Below are positions 11,856 through 20,146 of a stretch of 49,299 bases of DNA, piece by piece (position 1 is the first letter of the stretch; each line of letters starts with the position of its first letter). A model generated the notes under the pieces. It worked only from the letters and a program-made list of their open reading frames with translations. It had not been told where the DNA came from and did not search any database. The stretch is from Bacteroidota bacterium (GTDB lineage Bacteria; Bacteroidota; Bacteroidia; NS11-12g; UBA955), in contig JAIXYV010000003.1 of assembly GCA_027490055.1 (NCBI GenBank), forward strand, positions 1-49,299, written 5' to 3'. The position numbers were made by a program, and so were the translations under genes.

Positions 11856-14027
11856 ATGAGCGCTGCAAAATCTAAAATTCAAGAACAACCATCATCCAAA
11901 TTTCAAATGAAACAAATATCAGAGTACTTCGGTAAAAGTGTATTCGGACCAAAAGCAATGGCCGAGTATGTTAGTAAAGAAGCCATTAAGGCTGTTAACG
12001 AATCCAGAAATACCGGCAAGCCAATGGACCGCAAAATGGCGGATCAGATTGCTGAAGGTATGAAAAACTGGGCTATCGAAAAAGGTGCAACCCACTACAC
12101 ACACTGGTTCCAGCCTTTGCGTGGTTCAACTGCTGAAAAGCACGATGCTTTCTTTGATCCAACTGGCATAGACAGTGGTATTGAAGTATTTAATGGCAAA
12201 GCTCTTGTACAACAAGAACCTGATGCATCAAGTTTCCCTAATGGTGGTATCAGAAATACCTTTGAAGCCAGAGGATATAGCGCATGGGATCCGTCATCTC
12301 CTGCTTTCATCATGGAAAAAGCGAGTGGTAAAACACTTTGTATTCCTACCATCTTCGTAGCATACACTGGTGAGGCACTCGACTATAAAGCGCCATTAAT
12401 TAAATCAACCAACTTCCTGGTAAAAAACACCGTTGAAGTTTGCAAATATTTCGATGCTAATGTTAACAATGCTAAAGTTTCTCTGGGTATCGAACAGGAG
12501 TATTTCCTGGTAGACGAGGAGTTATACCATCAGCGCCCTGACTTAGTGTTTGCTGGCAGAACTTTGGTTGGTAATATGCCTGCTAAAGGTCAGCAACTCG
12601 AAGATCACTACTTCGGTAGCATTCCTGAGCGTGTATACAACTACATGACGGATTTCGAAAAAGAAGCTTTAAAACTTGGTATTCCTCTAAAAACAAGACA
12701 TAACGAGGTTGCGCCTGGTCAGTACGAATGTGCGCCAATGTTTGAAGAAGCGGATATCGCCATCGACCACAACTCACTGCTGATGGATGTGATGCAGTCT
12801 GTTGCTACAAGACATAAACTAAAAGTACTATGGCACGAAAAACCTTTCAAAGGTGTTAACGGTTCTGGTAAACACAATAACTGGTCTATCATCACCGATA
12901 CTGGTATCAATTTGTTATCTCCTGGTCACAGTCCACAAGACAACCTGCAATTCTTAACGTTCTTCATTAATACCATCAAAGCGGTGCATGATCACGCTGA
13001 CTTAATGAGAGCAAGTATTGCAACGGCTGCTAACGATCACAGATTGGGTGCTAACGAAGCGCCACCTGCTATCATGTCTGTGTTTATTGGAAGTACGCTT
13101 AGCGATGTTCTGAACCAGTTTGAACAATCTAAACCAGCAAAAAGCAAAAGCAGCAAAGCCAGCGAAAAGAAAATCAGTGTATACAGAATTCCTGAAATCT
13201 TACTGGATAACACCGATAGAAACAGAACTTCGCCTTTCGCCTTCACAGGTAATAAATTTGAATTCAGAGCGGTTGGTTCCAGCGACCATTGCGCAAACGC
13301 TATCATTGTTCTAAACACTGTCGTTGCTGAGCAATTAGCTAAATTCAAAAAAGATGTTGATGCTTTAATTAAAAAGAAAGTCAACAAACTACTGGCAATC
13401 GAACAAGTATTGATTGGCTATGTAAAAGCGTCTAAGAAAATCATTTTTGAAGGTAACGGTTATGGCGAAGAATGGGTAAAAGAAGCGGCTAAAAGAGGTT
13501 TAAGCAATATTAAAACTACGCCTTATGCATTGGATGCATACAACACCAAACACACTAAAGATTTGTTTGTCAATAACAGCATCTTCACCAAAAAAGAACT
13601 GGAAGCAAGAACAGAAATTAAGTTCGAAAACTACTTGTTGAAAATTCAGATTGAAGGTAGAATTCTAGGTGAATTAGTGAAAAACTACATCGTTCCTTCT
13701 GCAGTAGAATATCAGAAAAAACTGATTGACACCATCGAAGGTTTAGTTAGAATTGGACAGACTAAAGCTCAGAACAAACACCTTTACGAACTGGCCAGAG
13801 AGATTTCAAAAGAAATCAATGACATCTGGGAAAACAACAACAAAATGGTGGAAGAGCGCAAGAAGGCTAACAACCTCGACCATGCTGACAAAAAAGCTAA
13901 GGCATACTGCGACAAGGTAAAACCATACTTTGACAAAATCAGAGAGAGTGCAGACAAACTGGAAGAATTAATTGATAACGATGCTTGGAAATTACCTAAG
14001 TACCGCGATTTATTATTCCTGAAATAA
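11856..14027 (+). CDS. glnN: Type III glutamine synthetase
   Basis: ATP-dependent amidation of glutamate with ammonia; the central nitrogen-assimilation enzyme of Bacteroidota, cytoplasmic dodecamer. At 723 residues it has the GSIII length rather than the ~470 of GSI. Family-typical stretches are 'GIEQEYFLVD', 'KHNNWSI', 'ETL'-free GSIII segment 'NDHRLGANEAPPAI' (393-406) and 'NRTSPFAFTGNKFEFRAVG'. The C-terminal half is helical and Lys/Glu-rich, as in GSIII. It is monocistronic, with its own consensus promoter and a hairpin terminator directly behind it. No P-II or ntr-type regulator lies nearby. GSIII genes are named glnN or glnA in different genomes. Confidence 0.95.
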   Translation: MSAAKSKIQEQPSSKFQMKQISEYFGKSVFGPKAMAEYVSKEAIKAVNESRNTGKPMDRKMADQIAEGMKNWAIEKGATHYTHWFQPLRGSTAEKHDAFFDPTGIDSGIEVFNGKALVQQEPDASSFPNGGIRNTFEARGYSAWDPSSPAFIMEKASGKTLCIPTIFVAYTGEALDYKAPLIKSTNFLVKNTVEVCKYFDANVNNAKVSLGIEQEYFLVDEELYHQRPDLVFAGRTLVGNMPAKGQQLEDHYFGSIPERVYNYMTDFEKEALKLGIPLKTRHNEVAPGQYECAPMFEEADIAIDHNSLLMDVMQSVATRHKLKVLWHEKPFKGVNGSGKHNNWSIITDTGINLLSPGHSPQDNLQFLTFFINTIKAVHDHADLMRASIATAANDHRLGANEAPPAIMSVFIGSTLSDVLNQFEQSKPAKSKSSKASEKKISVYRIPEILLDNTDRNRTSPFAFTGNKFEFRAVGSSDHCANAIIVLNTVVAEQLAKFKKDVDALIKKKVNKLLAIEQVLIGYVKASKKIIFEGNGYGEEWVKEAAKRGLSNIKTTPYALDAYNTKHTKDLFVNNSIFTKKELEARTEIKFENYLLKIQIEGRILGELVKNYIVPSAVEYQKKLIDTIEGLVRIGQTKAQNKHLYELAREISKEINDIWENNNKMVEERKKANNLDHADKKAKAYCDKVKPYFDKIRESADKLEELIDNDAWKLPKYRDLLFLK

Positions 14028-14053
14028 GTCGGTTAAATTTATAATAATTATTT

Positions 14054-14092
14054 AAATCCCGTTTTGGAAATTTTTCTGAAACGGGATTTTTT
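14054..14092 (+). terminator. Intrinsic terminator of the glutamine synthetase gene
   Basis: Inverted repeat AAATCCCGTTT / AAACGGGATTT around a 14-nt loop, ending in a run of six T. It starts 26 nt after the stop codon. The T run merges into the first copy of the 101-bp repeat. Confidence 0.85.
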
Positions 14093-14190
14093 ACAACCTT
14101 CCAGGTCGACGACCTGGAAGGTTGTCTTTTTTCGCAAACGGCTTTCCTCCCGCCAACACTACTCCTTTCGCAAAAACCTTCAAACGCTTA
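14090..14190 (+). repeat. 101-bp intergenic repeat, copy 1
   Basis: This segment matches 18585-18685 at 94 of 101 positions, with no gap and in the same orientation. It opens with a palindrome (14093-14125) that is a perfect 16-bp inverted repeat around one central A. A 35-nt tail follows (14126-14160) that is identical between copies, then a 10-nt divergent stretch with five mismatches, then 20 identical nt (14171-14190). It lies between the glutamine synthetase terminator and the terminator of the T9SS cargo gene, and carries no ORF. Confidence 0.9.
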
Positions 14191-14213
14191 CTAAAATCAG
14201 GTCTGAATCTTAT

Positions 14214-14239
14214 AAAAAAAAGCCCCTTTCGGGGCTTTT
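14214..14239 (-). terminator. Intrinsic terminator of the 1297-residue T9SS cargo gene
   Basis: Stem AGCCCC/GGGGCT (14221-14226 with 14231-14236), 4-nt loop. Read on the minus strand it is followed by a run of eight T. It lies 46 nt past the stop of the cargo gene; on the plus strand it also backs up the glutamine synthetase terminator. Confidence 0.85.
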
Positions 14240-14285
14240 AAGGTAAATTAAGCTAGGCTCAACATTAACACATTTACACGAAATA

Positions 14286-17200
14286 TCATTGATGAATTAG
14301 CACTCTGTAAGTGCCCTGTTCATTAAAGACAACTGAATAAACCCCATCACTGAATCCTTCAAAATGTAACTCCGAAATACCATTAACAACTATTAGTTTT
14401 GGAAATACCTCAAGTCCTTGAGCATTGTATACTCTAAAGGCTTCTGAACCATCATAACCTCTTAAATATACAAGCGTTTGAGCAGGCACCGGATATAACT
14501 CATATTTCAAAGCATCTGAAATCAAACAAGGCGATTTTACAATTGCTGTGCTGTATTCGACACCATCAGTTGTTTGCATTAAAATCTTATAAAATGACTG
14601 TCCAGAATGAATTGCCCTGTCTTCATACTCATATTTTTTCTGACTATTTGCTGCTTCAGATTGAATGCTGTACCATTTCTTACCGTCTGCTGACCACCTA
14701 ATATCAAAGGCTCTCACTTCTTTATCGGTATTGACAAACCAACTTAACTGATTGACTTTATCAGCACAGTTTATAGTCAGTTGTATTTCATCTGTCGGTA
14801 ACGGAATTAACCAATTAATGCCATAGCTTGCTTTTGATCCAATTTTATTCGCTCTGTCTACATACGAAAATTGAAAACTCATGCTGGTACTGCCAAGCTG
14901 ACTGTATCGGGCAATTAATAATGATGGATTATAAGAACTTATTTCCAAACTGTCTGTAATGCGCTCGCCAGGAGCAAGTACACCATCATTATTAGCATCA
15001 TAAAACAACTCATTAGTTGTTGGTGCATACAGCCTTACTCTACTGCCCGTGCCAAATGTTCCATCCTCGGCATCTGTTCCCTGTAATGCTCCCGGACTGG
15101 TGCTGGTTCTATTTAAACGCATCGTATCGGTCAAAGAAAAAGATGGTGAATTAATACTGTAAGTCTGATTGCCTGAAACAGGTACCCTTTCAATCCCCAA
15201 ATTGACATTACTAATATTGCTGGTTAAGATGCGTAAAGCAATACTGCCGTTTGCATTCCCTGATTCTATGCCTGTTCCTGCAAAATTTCCAGTTCCAAAT
15301 TGTTCCCCTGTATTGGTCCAGCCCGTAGGCAAACTTGAAGCAGGTGCCGTGGCGCCAATACCTGCTGCAACAGTCGCTAATCGCAAAGTATAATTAGAAT
15401 ATCTCACGCCTGTCAGCGAATAAGTGCCAGTATTGGGATTCACTAAAGAACTGTCGACAACCAAGCCAAGATTATTGACTAAATAGACATACATTGAACT
15501 CGAAGATGGATTTCCAAAACCTCTACCATCAATCAAACTATTGGTTAAGCCATTACTGTCATTAAACAATCTGCCTGTCACCGTAAAGCTACATCCTGTT
15601 GTCGCTGCATAGATTGTAGTACGCTGTTGAAACACATTACAATTGGCGTCCTTAACCTTAACAAGATAGGTTCCTGGTTCTAAATTGTAGATCACAAAAG
15701 AGTCTTTAGAGGTCGTTGTGGCATTGTAAGAATTGGTTGCTTCATTAAACCAAAAGACCCTGTATGGTGCAACTCCCGAATACTTGACAGTTATACTATC
15801 CAGGTTACTTCCCAGACATAAACTATCTGTCGTTTTAATAATACTTGTTCCTCCCATGAAAGGATTAATATTGGGTACAGTATACCCGGCATCAATATTT
15901 GGTGTGGTAATCGGACCACCATTCTGGCCCCAAACCACAACAAGGTTTTTTCCCAGATTTCCTCCATTATTAGCCGCAGTTTTAGTATAGAGCAAAGCCC
16001 CGTTTAATGAGCCTGTCGTTGAGCCAATCGTAATAGTTTGATATGGATTCATCAAGATACCATTTCCACTGGTTGTTTCATTGTAGTTAACTCCACCAAT
16101 TGTAATCGGATTATCAGATGCGTCAACATCTGTATTGAACGATACATTATCTGGTGTACCGTCTCCGTTGACATCGACATACAAGTAGGTAGTGCTGTCA
16201 ACCATAACGTGAGCAACCGTATAGTTAACAGTGCCAATCGCTGCATTGGTTGGATCCGCTCCATCCCCGAAACTCATCAATACTTTATTAGTTAAATTGG
16301 CTGTCGGAACTGGCGTAAATCCCCAGTCAGAATTTCCATTATTATAATCGCACAAGGCTATCATAATAAATGGCACCGTACTGCAATAACGAAATCCAAG
16401 TCCTGATGAATTCACATCATCGAAATTACTTGAATTTGCAGCGACACTTATAGTTGAAGTTGCACCACCAGCAGTAGTTCGGGTTACACTAATCGCAGAT
16501 CCTGTTGGATTGTATAAAAAATTTCTAACAGCCAGATTTGGGACCGCAGGCATATAATAACAAGACGATAACTGGTTGTTCGGATTCAATGAATAGGTTC
16601 GCCCCTGGTAAGGCACAGTATTGTATCTGCCTGTCATCAAATAGACCATTACAGCTTTATTTGAACTGATGGTAGCACCCTGATTAACATTGATAACTGT
16701 AGTGCCCTGACGAGTGTCGACATAATAGGTTTCACCCTCATTTAAAGTGTCTGTAATATCTACCGAACCATTGGCATCGCGATCGATCTGAATAATGGTA
16801 TTGGCTTCCTTTGCCATAATTGACAAACTCGCTATATCCACAGAGTTGCCTTTATTAGCCGTATTTATTCCAATAGGAACAGTAAACGAAGTACCCCATT
16901 TTGCCGCAGTTGGTACCGATGCTCCGGAGACACTGACAGTCCCTAAACTACCCCAGGCAAACTTGGTTAAGGCACCATTACCTCCAACAAAAATCTTATC
17001 CTTTCCATCATAATCTACCGTTGCTTGCAATGTGTTATCGCTTGTTGCACCATTGGGATTGTAGGTAGTGGCACCACTATGCCCACTGATGAGTTTGTTA
17101 CTTAATATGATGGCTTTACCAGCATCCAATAAATCTGTTGGAAAGCCCGGTGCTACACCGTTTGATAAATCGCCATCTCCCCAAATTCTTGTTGAACTCT

Positions 17201-18179
17201 GAGTGGGTGCTTTAATATTAGACTCATACCCGTCTTCCCAATGATCATAGACTACCACAGCATCGGTTGATACTGAAAGACCAATATACACTTGAGTGGT
17301 ATCACTATTCGAAGCGTTAATGTCTTCTAAAAAATCCATGGCTTCATTTTCAGGCAATGGCACATAAAACTTAGTTGAATCGCAGTTAAATAAAGAACGT
17401 AAAGTAACGACAGCTGTATCACAACCATTATCAGTTGTGGTAGCAATATTGCCATCCGGACCGGCATCGCATACCCTATAAGAGAAAAAATCAACTCCAT
17501 CGAAATTCGTATTTGGTGTATACGTGTAATACCCGCCAGAATTAAAAGTAAGTGTTCCATTAGAAGTATTAATGGCTCCGAGCGAATAGGTTCTGGCATC
17601 TAAATCCAGATTCACATCGTTGGATCCTATAAAGCCCTTACCTGTACCTGGACTCATAAATACCCTGGTGTCGTTTACCGCATTCACTGGATAATAACAT
17701 GTATGAGTGCGCATAACACCGTCGATAAATAAAGTACCTGCCGTTCTCGCAATACGTATGTATCGCAATCCTCCGGCCGGGACTGTAAAAGTAGCATACA
17801 AAGATGCTGTAGTAGTTGCTCCAGACAATGTCCCTAAACTTGTAAAGGTGATACTATCCATTGAATATTGTACTGTAGCTGTTGGCGTTCCTGCACTTCT
17901 TGCCCAGGCAACCGTTAAAGTAGAACCCTGAGACACCCATGCTTTCAAATCAATTATTAGTGGATTAGCTGTACTTAAGGTCGCCGAATTACCTGTTGCT
18001 AATGTTGTACCCGCAATACCTATGGTACCTACAGCATTACCAGGATTAGTATTGCCTCCCACCGCAATAACACCATACCCTGTGGATGAGATTGCAGAAC
18101 CAAAAGGACAAGTCTGAGACACTGCAACATTTAATGTTAAAATTACTGATGCAAGAACCAAAGTCCTTTTACCAGCCAT
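14286..18179 (-). CDS. Large secreted T9SS cargo protein (type A sorting domain)
   Basis: A 1297-residue exported protein, counted from ATG 18179, where a signal peptide begins ('MAGKRTLVLASVILTLNVAVSQ'). The frame extends 31 codons further upstream, but that extension precedes and spoils the signal peptide. About 165-265 is a cadherin/Ig-like module ('AVNDTRVF...FFSYRVCD'). About 270-670 is a conserved-looking region of unknown identity containing 'DHWEDGYE' (312-319) and 'IWGDGD' (332-337). An SdrD-B/carboxypeptidase-regulatory-like module follows ('GRLFNDSNG...YSLTGVRYSNYTLRL'). The last ~75 residues ('YELYPVPAQTLVYL...GVYSVVF') are a Por_Secre_tail T9SS sorting domain. It is probably surface-attached or secreted, with adhesion as a guess. 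The gene is bracketed by the 101-bp repeat pair. Confidence 0.85.
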   Translation of the reverse strand: MAGKRTLVLASVILTLNVAVSQTCPFGSAISSTGYGVIAVGGNTNPGNAVGTIGIAGTTLATGNSATLSTANPLIIDLKAWVSQGSTLTVAWARSAGTPTATVQYSMDSITFTSLGTLSGATTTASLYATFTVPAGGLRYIRIARTAGTLFIDGVMRTHTCYYPVNAVNDTRVFMSPGTGKGFIGSNDVNLDLDARTYSLGAINTSNGTLTFNSGGYYTYTPNTNFDGVDFFSYRVCDAGPDGNIATTTDNGCDTAVVTLRSLFNCDSTKFYVPLPENEAMDFLEDINASNSDTTQVYIGLSVSTDAVVVYDHWEDGYESNIKAPTQSSTRIWGDGDLSNGVAPGFPTDLLDAGKAIILSNKLISGHSGATTYNPNGATSDNTLQATVDYDGKDKIFVGGNGALTKFAWGSLGTVSVSGASVPTAAKWGTSFTVPIGINTANKGNSVDIASLSIMAKEANTIIQIDRDANGSVDITDTLNEGETYYVDTRQGTTVINVNQGATISSNKAVMVYLMTGRYNTVPYQGRTYSLNPNNQLSSCYYMPAVPNLAVRNFLYNPTGSAISVTRTTAGGATSTISVAANSSNFDDVNSSGLGFRYCSTVPFIMIALCDYNNGNSDWGFTPVPTANLTNKVLMSFGDGADPTNAAIGTVNYTVAHVMVDSTTYLYVDVNGDGTPDNVSFNTDVDASDNPITIGGVNYNETTSGNGILMNPYQTITIGSTTGSLNGALLYTKTAANNGGNLGKNLVVVWGQNGGPITTPNIDAGYTVPNINPFMGGTSIIKTTDSLCLGSNLDSITVKYSGVAPYRVFWFNEATNSYNATTTSKDSFVIYNLEPGTYLVKVKDANCNVFQQRTTIYAATTGCSFTVTGRLFNDSNGLTNSLIDGRGFGNPSSSSMYVYLVNNLGLVVDSSLVNPNTGTYSLTGVRYSNYTLRLATVAAGIGATAPASSLPTGWTNTGEQFGTGNFAGTGIESGNANGSIALRILTSNISNVNLGIERVPVSGNQTYSINSPSFSLTDTMRLNRTSTSPGALQGTDAEDGTFGTGSRVRLYAPTTNELFYDANNDGVLAPGERITDSLEISSYNPSLLIARYSQLGSTSMSFQFSYVDRANKIGSKASYGINWLIPLPTDEIQLTINCADKVNQLSWFVNTDKEVRAFDIRWSADGKKWYSIQSEAANSQKKYEYEDRAIHSGQSFYKILMQTTDGVEYSTAIVKSPCLISDALKYELYPVPAQTLVYLRGYDGSEAFRVYNAQGLEVFPKLIVVNGISELHFEGFSDGVYSVVFNEQGTYRVLIHQ

Positions 18180-18584
18180 TAAATGAAAACTTGAAAAAAT
18201 TTCTTGAAGAATGTACTTCAAAAATGCGTTAACATTGATTTTTAAGGTAGCTAATCTTTGTACGATGAACATTTTTAATATAGGTATTTTAAAATAATTT
18301 TATTTAAAACATGAGTATTTAATACTAATAAAATTGATATTTTGTGTTTTTTTAATCTATTTTTAATCAATTCTTTAGTACTTTAATACTAATTTTTTAT
18401 GTTTACAAAGAACGAAAACACCCGAGAAAGAGGCAATATTGTTTAATCTTAGTTATCCAACACTGTACAAAAATTGTATATTTTTATTGTCTTAACTACT
18501 TATTACTCTGTATTTCTTTATTTTATGTTTATTATTTTTGTTTATTTTAAGAACAAAATCAATGAATTATCAAATTTCCTAACA
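18180..18584. other. AT-rich intergenic region upstream of the T9SS cargo gene
   Basis: About 400 nt without a supportable gene. It is strongly AT-rich, more so than its surroundings. It holds two copies of the 12-mer TTTAATACTAAT (18318-18329 and 18382-18393). The first lies in a 13-bp near-perfect dyad AGTATT-T-AATACT (18314-18326); the second has AGTA...TACT arms (18377-18390). No full TTG/TAnnTTTG pair was found on the minus strand, so the promoter of the large cargo gene is not located. Confidence 0.5.
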
Positions 18585-18685
18585 TTTACAACCTTCCAGG
18601 TCGTCGACCTGGAAGCTTGTCTTTTTTCGCAAACGGCTTTCCTCCCGCCAACACTTGCACTTTCCCAAAAACCTTCAAACGCTTA
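18585..18685 (+). repeat. 101-bp intergenic repeat, copy 2
   Basis: Same orientation as copy 1 at 14090-14190, 4495 nt away, 94/101 identical. The palindrome (18588-18620) has one mismatch in its right arm (AAGCTTGT instead of AAGGTTGT) and a central T in place of A. The 35-nt tail (18621-18655) is identical. The copy ends 7 nt before the -33 element of the downstream glycosyltransferase promoter. Confidence 0.9.
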
Positions 18686-18692
18686 TCCAATT

Positions 18693-18722
18693 TTGCACAA
18701 ACTCAGCCTTGCCTTATCTTTG
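18693..18722 (+). promoter_or_regulatory. Promoter of the first GT-C gene (TTG-N19-TATCTTTG)
   Basis: TTG 18693-18695 and TATCTTTG 18715-18722 with a 19-nt spacer match the consensus at both elements. The box ends 14 nt before the ATG at 18737. It sits directly downstream of repeat copy 2. Confidence 0.75.
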
Positions 18723-18736
18723 ATTCCTGATTCTAT

Positions 18737-20146
18737 ATGCAACGCCTTAAACCCTTTCTCCCCCTCTTCTGCCTCATCGCAGCAATGGTGCTTTGCTATG
18801 CCATACTGAATCACTACTTCCACATCTTCCAGTTACCCTATATCTGGGACGAACTTGGTGTCTACAGTCGCGCCGCCATTTACCTCTACGAACATTCTCT
18901 CGGTATCTTACCTAATGCCATTCCCGATGAACTGTCCCGCGGTCATCCTATCCTGGTACCTTTTTACTTTGCTCTGTGGTTCAAAATCTTTGGCTGCTAT
19001 CCGCTTGTCGCTCACATCGCTGCCGCTTGCCTCAATATTTCCGCTTTCGTTTTTGTCTACCTCATTCTCAAAAAATACATCAATGTCTGGCTAGCCGCAG
19101 CCGCTGCTTTCATGATCTTTCTCCAGCCTTTTATTTTGGCGCAGTCGACTTTAGTCTTACCCGAAATACCTCTACTCTTCGCCACTGCTGCTGCCACTTA
19201 TTTCTTTCTTTCTAATAAACTATGGTGGTGCTCCGCTTTCCTAATCGTGGCGCTCCAAATCAAAGAGTCGGCACTCATTCTCCCTCTGGCATTCTATATC
19301 AGTCACCTTTGGGTGAAACGAAAGTTTGAACTATTACCGCTGCTACAAGTTTTAATTCTGCCTGTTCTCAGCTTTGCGCTGTTTATCCTGATCCAGAACT
19401 ATCAAAGAGGCTATTACTTCTACCCGCTACATACTTCCTTACTGGCGTTTGATGGCTATACGATTGAACACCGCTGGCACGAGTTCAGAGATTTCCTTCT
19501 ATGGGAACAAATGCATTTTATATTACTGCTGGTATGGTGCATCTATGTACTTTATATCCGCCCATTCAAATCCATAAATTGGCGACAAACTTCAATCATC
19601 TTCCCGCTTATTTTCATTGGTGGTGTTTGCTTTTCTGTGCTCAACTATTACCTCTCCAGATACACCATATTCTTTATGGTGCCACTATACTGTTTCCTGA
19701 TCATCTCTGCTGATGCTGTTGCCAATACTAAGAAATCGCATGTCTTCTCTCTGCTTTTGATCGGTAGCGGTATCATCACTGCACTATTAAATATAAAAGG
19801 CTCTAAAGAATTTAAAGATACCGACTTCTCTTACACCGACCATGCCGCTAACCTCCAAGCAACGGTCACCGCACTCGATTCAAACTTATATGCTGGTCGC
19901 ACCATACGCATGGACTTCCCCTTAGCGGCCTGCTACTGGGGTGATAAAAATGGCTATACCCGTAAGGCCGACTATACCATAGTATACGATAAAAAACTCT
20001 ATGCTGAATTTGAAGTACTGACCTATCCAGGTAATATGGCAGACACTGCCAAATTACCCACTGAGGCCAAATTAATACAGTCGATTAGCAATGGCTATGC
20101 CTATGCCAGAATCTACCGTTTGTTAGAAGAAAAAGACTATCGCTGA
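18737..20146 (+). CDS. GT-C-type membrane glycosyltransferase (PMT/ArnT-like), paralogue 1
   Basis: 469-residue polytopic inner-membrane protein with about 9-11 hydrophobic segments and a short soluble C-terminal domain (about 385-469). The first periplasmic loop has 'LPYIWDELGVY' with the Asp38-Glu39 pair expected of the catalytic Asp in GT-C enzymes. It is followed by 'HSLGILPNAIPDELSRGHPIL' split over residues 54-74, and later 'LQIKESALILPL', like the KETA motif of ArnT/PMT relatives. Such enzymes transfer a sugar from a polyprenyl-phosphate donor to protein or lipid at the periplasmic face. It is clearly paralogous to the protein at 44712-46118. It has its own promoter and touches the convergent T9SS cargo gene (0 nt between stops). 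Donor and acceptor are unknown. Confidence 0.8.
   Translation: MQRLKPFLPLFCLIAAMVLCYAILNHYFHIFQLPYIWDELGVYSRAAIYLYEHSLGILPNAIPDELSRGHPILVPFYFALWFKIFGCYPLVAHIAAACLNISAFVFVYLILKKYINVWLAAAAAFMIFLQPFILAQSTLVLPEIPLLFATAAATYFFLSNKLWWCSAFLIVALQIKESALILPLAFYISHLWVKRKFELLPLLQVLILPVLSFALFILIQNYQRGYYFYPLHTSLLAFDGYTIEHRWHEFRDFLLWEQMHFILLLVWCIYVLYIRPFKSINWRQTSIIFPLIFIGGVCFSVLNYYLSRYTIFFMVPLYCFLIISADAVANTKKSHVFSLLLIGSGIITALLNIKGSKEFKDTDFSYTDHAANLQATVTALDSNLYAGRTIRMDFPLAACYWGDKNGYTRKADYTIVYDKKLYAEFEVLTYPGNMADTAKLPTEAKLIQSISNGYAYARIYRLLEEKDYR

Follow-up and report, generated by a model that had tools for sequence, protein, structure and literature searches.

A clustered REP-like hairpin repeat, seen so far in one Bacteroidota genome and probably mobilised by RAYT-type transposases, brackets a putative T9SS cargo gene

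The window analysed here, a stretch of 49,299 nucleotides from contig JAIXYV010000003.1 of a Bacteroidota bacterium, contains a type III glutamine synthetase gene (GSIII, 11856–14027, + strand), followed by a single gene of 1297 amino acids on the opposite strand (14286–18179, –) and then by a gene for a GT-C/PMT_2-type membrane protein (18737–20146, +). The middle gene encodes a Big_9/cadherin-like region and a T9SS sorting tail that stays below threshold, scoring 19.3 bits against Por_Secre_tail (cut-off 27) and 21.3 bits against TIGR04183 (cut-off 23); its first-pass label as a T9SS cargo gene is thus plausible, although it falls below both curated cut-offs. We refer to it below as the cargo gene. 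It is bracketed by two copies of a 101-nt unit in direct orientation, at 14090–14190 and 18585–18685 (both +), which are identical at 94 of 101 positions without gaps, exactly at the coordinates claimed in the first-pass annotation. Pairwise alignment shows that the similarity breaks off sharply at either end, and the pair forms the only long direct repeat family within the region (a single family of 101 nt with a spacing of 4495). Between the copies lies one gene, as previously noted, with its own terminator-like site (14239–14218, – strand).

Each unit consists of a near-perfect hairpin, a T-run and a tail of ~65 nt with two AAACG boxes, bearing out the earlier view that it is more than a hairpin. 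In copy 1, the hairpin occupies 14093–14125 (+) and, with the CTTTTTT that follows it, is terminator-like, and the directional tail (TTTTTCGCAAACGGCTTTC ... AAACGCTTA) occupies 14126–14190 (+). The 35 nt that follow the hairpin (14126–14160) are identical in both copies, also as previously stated, and form part of a 39-nt identical run (14122–14160). The predicted folding of copy 1 was far better than that of shuffled sequences (z −4.98, none of 200 shuffles as good). In copy 2, the hairpin (18588–18620, +) has one mismatched pair. Copy 1 sits where GSIII and the cargo gene converge, immediately preceded by the terminator-like hairpin of GSIII itself (14054–14089, +) and with the terminator-like site of the cargo gene (14218–14239, –) just beyond it, while copy 2 is located between the cargo gene and the GT-C gene, which diverge, and ends ~50 bp before the start of the GT-C gene. 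No Rfam family matched near its gathering score in 13950–18800.

The first-pass annotation had proposed looking for the unit in the rest of the genome, and it is not a private pair: across 3.02 Mb in 121 contigs, 21 full-length copies scoring at least 68 bits were found on 11 contigs, together with a weak 22nd copy of 47 bits (C51:6200). The 19 places besides the window pair include several beside genes such as those for pirin, a DinB-like protein and a cyclase. A genome-wide search for the exact palindrome CTTCCAGGT-N-ACCTGGAAG gave 34 sites and one for its reversed control none, so the repeat is not a product of chance. Two forms could be distinguished: form A, the window type, with hairpin, T-run and tail; and form B, a palindrome (ACACCTTCCAGGTCTAAGACCTGGAAGGTGT) that has no tail, has a loop region usually reading CTAAG or CTTAG, and constitutes a second subfamily. 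A covariance model (R1) combines 18 of the 22 form-A copies and leaves aside four irregular or truncated ones (C108_16537, C47_13644, C51_6280 and C1_276); copies 1 and 2 of the window score 109 and 103 bits against it, respectively. Most of the weaker matches to R1 represent form B, isolated palindromes or the same hairpins read on the opposite strand. Form B was located on contigs C64, C67, C60, C9, C37, C81 and C116 (L042–L049).

Over the same 18 copies, 88% of hairpin cells are paired and five pairs have changed on both sides, giving a covariation score that none of 500 shuffles and none of the slid controls attained. The inner stem is nearly invariant and the outer positions vary on both sides: pair 7–35 is A-U in 11 copies, G-C in four, C-G in two and G-U in one, and pair 5–37 is C-G in six, A-U in five and unpaired in seven. 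The tail, too, is conserved across these copies, keeping AAACGGCT and a terminal AAACG-N-TTA-like box. Read by eye from the table of open reading frames (ORFs), the gene context of the 22 copies was convergent in nine cases, divergent in four and co-directional in seven, with the remaining two at contig ends, where only one neighbour is present. By the same table, none of the copies falls within a convincing gene; a few extend into the start or end of an ORF, and two tandem copies on contig C47 fall within a putative ORF of 143 aa.

In six of the 22 units, another palindrome, in reversed orientation (ACCTGGAAGGTTnnnAACCTTCCAGGT or nearly so), directly follows the tail on its 3' side, possibly marking a fuller two-hairpin form; these units are located in L032, L033, L034, L037 and L041, and the window copies lack the addition. 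In a cluster of five copies on contig C108, two Por_Secre_tail genes (L032:13463–14332 and L032:16587–17105) adjoin units, one of them with a Kazal domain in addition; two genes are too few to claim a link between the units and secreted proteins.

The copies are strongly clustered. Among the 21 full-length copies, eight pairs lie within 5 kb of each other, compared with 0.68 expected on a 3.02-Mb line, a count reached in none of 50,000 simulations; with the weak 22nd copy included the count rises to nine (again 0 of 50,000). On each of the five multi-copy contigs all copies share one orientation (probability by chance about 0.001), and over the 18 modelled copies, those on the same contig are more alike (0.804) than others (0.706; 0 of 10,000 permutations). 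Each window copy has the other as its nearest relative. Neighbouring units are thus like-oriented and unusually similar, and the direct pair in the window is therefore a usual product of the family. We also compared orientation with GC skew as a probe of the replication-strand mechanism expected for single-strand transposition: the two agreed in 9 of 11 contigs when the whole contig was considered, in 8 of 11 at 10 kb and in 7 of 11 at 5 kb, with contig C1 a strong exception.

Outside its own genome the unit was not detected. Model R1, used for the search in relatives that the first-pass annotation had suggested, found it in none of 91 distinct other genomes; neither 58 relatives of the same genus, family or order nor 69 other members of the family carried it, in two scans whose stricter filters can lose weak matches. 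Plasmid and phage collections likewise contained no match to the unit. The pattern TTTTTCNNAAACGGCTTTC occurs in at least 113 stretches of the genome-contig collection, and among those listed none had an upstream stem of at least 8 bp or the end box; they look like chance matches and were rejected as copies of the unit. The repeat is therefore lineage-specific as seen so far, being found in this genome only, and a search of mainly subscription-free literature returned no published description of it.

The locus itself was then traced through the genus. GSIII was found in 15 same-genus relatives (16 of 17 genomes when that of the window is counted), and the gene next to it is the cargo gene in G011, the GT-C gene in G013, G010, G008 and G003, and another or an unidentified gene in ten. 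Of 16 same-genus genomes, five (G011, G015, G004, G007 and G012, the last with the gene cut by a contig end) have long relatives of the cargo gene, and weaker, partial matches turned up in others. In G011, the order GSIII–cargo–GT-C and onward is the same as in the window, and the gap between GSIII and the cargo gene measures 84 bp and contains one terminator-like hairpin and no unit; model R1 found no unit anywhere in that genome. The remaining four, also unit-free, carry the cargo gene at a different, mutually conserved locus. Aligned junctions show that G010 and G008 share the terminator and the GT-C leader of G011 but have no cargo block between the two, and G010 is the nearest relative of G011 in the GSIII tree (98/95). 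Where the first-pass annotation had proposed comparing strains for the 4.5-kb block, the comparison of same-genus genomes shows that the cargo gene comes and goes at the GSIII/GT-C junction in genomes without the repeat. The cargo block together with its AT-rich leader (window 14027–18737; L115 and L260–L262 for G011, G010 and G008) shows clean presence or absence, without the unit. The simplest reading is that the window genome (G000) and G011 hold the cargo gene at this site by common descent, although G010, the sister of G011, lacks it. Since the gene is in place in G011 with no unit present, the repeats did not bring it to this site.

Two RAYT-type genes, paralogues with 45% identity, were found in the genome of the window: P0001 on contig C108 and P0002 on contig C67. 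Both proteins hold NHFH and a Y-x-H-x-NP motif (YVHVNP and YIHHNP), and both match NF047646 below its cut-off. P0002 also matches Pfam Y1_Tnp just above the cut-off. A profile of six RAYT-type proteins matched TnpA-REP (4ER8) with an E-value of 1.7e-5, the Tyr motif included, and the region aligned to W94/Q95 of TnpA-REP contains neither W nor Q. P0001 ends 13 bp from a form-A unit (C108:16478–16578), on one side, and P0002 is bracketed by form-B palindromes at C67:35041 and 35884. Counting against mobilisation by these proteins, P0001 reaches only 46.5 (3e-12) against the NF047646 cut-off of 80 and has no Pfam match, and the unit that adjoins it has a degenerate hairpin (68.6 bits). The single P0001 adjacency is moreover a weak indication in a unit-rich contig, since by a rough estimate 1–2% of genes would adjoin a unit.

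In relatives, hairpins of at least 14 pairs were found at 9 of the 10 RAYT loci fetched, compared with 1 of 26 control loci. The palindrome lies inside the matched RAYT region in seven loci, and the reading frame stays open through it in the four that were translated. These palindromes are of a 33-bp type and stand between the HuH and Tyr motifs (L121 and L123–L128; for example AACTTTTCCAAAGTTtggAACTTTGGAAAAGTT). An AT-rich palindrome pattern, allowing up to three mismatches, is carried by 8 of 59 genomes; in G002, G025, G038 and G040 the sole match lies inside a RAYT gene, so these four are no separate evidence of co-occurrence. In G044 and G046 the palindrome is present with no P0001-like gene found. 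One further relative, G049, has 17 palindrome matches across its genome, and its own RAYT locus accounts for three of these.

Taken together, these findings make it likely that the unit is a non-autonomous, intergenic, lineage-specific REP-like hairpin repeat of fixed polarity, probably mobilised by a RAYT. A RAYT-type HUH/Tyr single-strand transposase (P0001, or P0002) would recognise the hairpin in single-stranded DNA and copy or move the unit into intergenic gaps, in most cases nearby and on one strand, and such short hops would result in local clusters of similar, like-oriented units. The pair around the cargo gene would be one such cluster, with copy 1 placed between the convergent terminators of GSIII and the cargo gene and copy 2 upstream of the GT-C gene; some copies may also act as terminators. 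The bracketing of the cargo gene accordingly looks incidental, a by-product of a clustered repeat family.

The direct orientation of the copies and the one gene between them invite the idea that the cargo gene is mobilised by the two units around it, as a composite element or a repeat-flanked insertion, and the variable presence of the gene at the junction, where GSIII is directly followed by GT-C in G010, G008, G013 and G003, points the same way. The insertion that the first-pass annotation had envisaged is nevertheless contradicted by G011, in which the cargo gene stands between the same neighbours with no unit, and further by the unit-free genomes that hold the gene at another conserved locus. 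Close unit pairs elsewhere in the genome enclose genes of unrelated kinds (pirin, DinB-like, cyclase), and pirin is found, at 55% identity or more, in 11 of 16 unit-free same-genus genomes, leaving a composite element scarcely credible. The first-pass annotation had also held that its reading would fall if the unit lay at dozens of unrelated intergenic sites and the cargo gene were always present at this locus in relatives; many such sites indeed exist, but the cargo gene is not constant at the locus. The same bracketing of ordinary genes speaks against its other proposal, a surface-gene on/off switch. In such a switch, RecA-dependent deletion between the 101-bp copies would lose the cargo gene in part of the population. 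An identical run of 39 nt at 4.5-kb spacing is in principle enough for rare homologous recombination, and the copies are 93% identical; yet the assembly shows no deletion junction, a deletion is one-way and hence no switch, and the variation of the cargo gene at the junction is seen in genomes without the repeat. The proposal thus found no support, and we regard such a switch as very improbable.

A somewhat better case, still an unlikely one, can be made for a transcription-terminator module that owes its spread to gene conversion or duplication and not to a transposase. Hairpin and T-run make a terminator-like site, nine of the 22 copies have convergent neighbours, and gene conversion could also produce the likeness of copies within a contig. 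Such a module fits poorly with the four copies between divergent genes, with a tail of ~65 nt conserved past the T-run, with copy 1 adding a third hairpin to a gap in which GSIII and the cargo gene each have one, and with the adjacency to RAYT genes. If a RAYT-mobilised REP-like repeat is preferred, the tempting but wrong idea that a surface gene sits in a repeat-flanked cassette falls away, and the unit takes its place with the REP/RAYT systems of Bacteroidota. Repeats without the canonical guide, together with enzymes without the canonical guide-reading residues, offer a testable pair for RAYT target choice, and the quantified local, like-oriented spread provides a clue to how such repeats move.

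PATE and MITE-like elements are small, non-coding and non-autonomous, with terminal inverted repeats and target duplication. The unit resembles them in being small, without coding capacity and probably mobilised in trans, and the first-pass suggestion of a MITE-like element was close to right in so far as it meant a small dispersed element; it differs in that, as read from the alignment, neither terminal inverted repeats nor a target-site duplication are visible at the two window copies. Like REPs, the unit is a palindromic hairpin in many intergenic copies, and, as in REPtrons, RAYT genes with HUH and Tyr motifs (P0001 and P0002) have a cognate repeat beside them, on one side and on both sides, respectively. 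The inverted pairs of REPINs and BIMEs have no counterpart here, as the window pair and other same-contig neighbours are direct. Units of like orientation around single genes also bring to mind integron attC arrays, which would combine attC core sites with an integron integrase. We call the unit REP-like, and not a canonical REP, because the GT[AG]G guide is absent from the hairpin foot in all 18 copies on both strands and the homology block, at 101 nt, exceeds the 21–65 nt given for REPs by Quentin et al. 2018 (PMC6006769).

Within the classification set out in that study (PMC6006769), the closest match is to REPs and RAYT/TnpA-REP of subclass 2.4 (Bertels group 4), with which the present system shares clustered intergenic hairpins in tens of copies, a low-copy HUH/Tyr gene flanked by its own repeat and, in the RAYTs of relatives, palindromes that keep the frame open and lie between the HuH and Tyr motifs. 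Such in-frame REP insertions are described there as peculiar to subclass 2.4, so palindromes inside RAYT genes are already known. Unlike in subclass 2.4, the units lack GT[AG]G at the hairpin foot (0 of 18) and the RAYT-type proteins have no W/Q at the positions of TnpA-REP W94/Q95; the unit is about 100 nt long with a directional tail, as opposed to 21–65 nt, and neighbours are direct, not inverted. The RAYTs of subclass 2.6 (group 5) are similar to those found here in being centred on Bacteroidetes, in lacking a GT[AG]G consensus and in having repeat copies elsewhere in the genome, but their repeats are credited in the same source with 'atypical secondary structures' and weaker secondary structure, while the stem here is long and strong, in a comparison made with the published description. 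It is conceivable, though on balance doubtful, that the unit represents a new class of RAYT substrate, ~100 nt long and of one polarity, in which an AAACG-box tail would replace the GT[AG]G guide, its RAYTs would do without the W/Q guide-reading residues, and short one-strand hops in a replicating region would leave single genes bracketed by direct repeats. Judged from sequence, what appears to set this system apart from known REP/RAYT systems is the combination of a missing GT[AG]G foot with non-W/Q residues in the enzyme, the ~100-nt size and the tail of fixed polarity.
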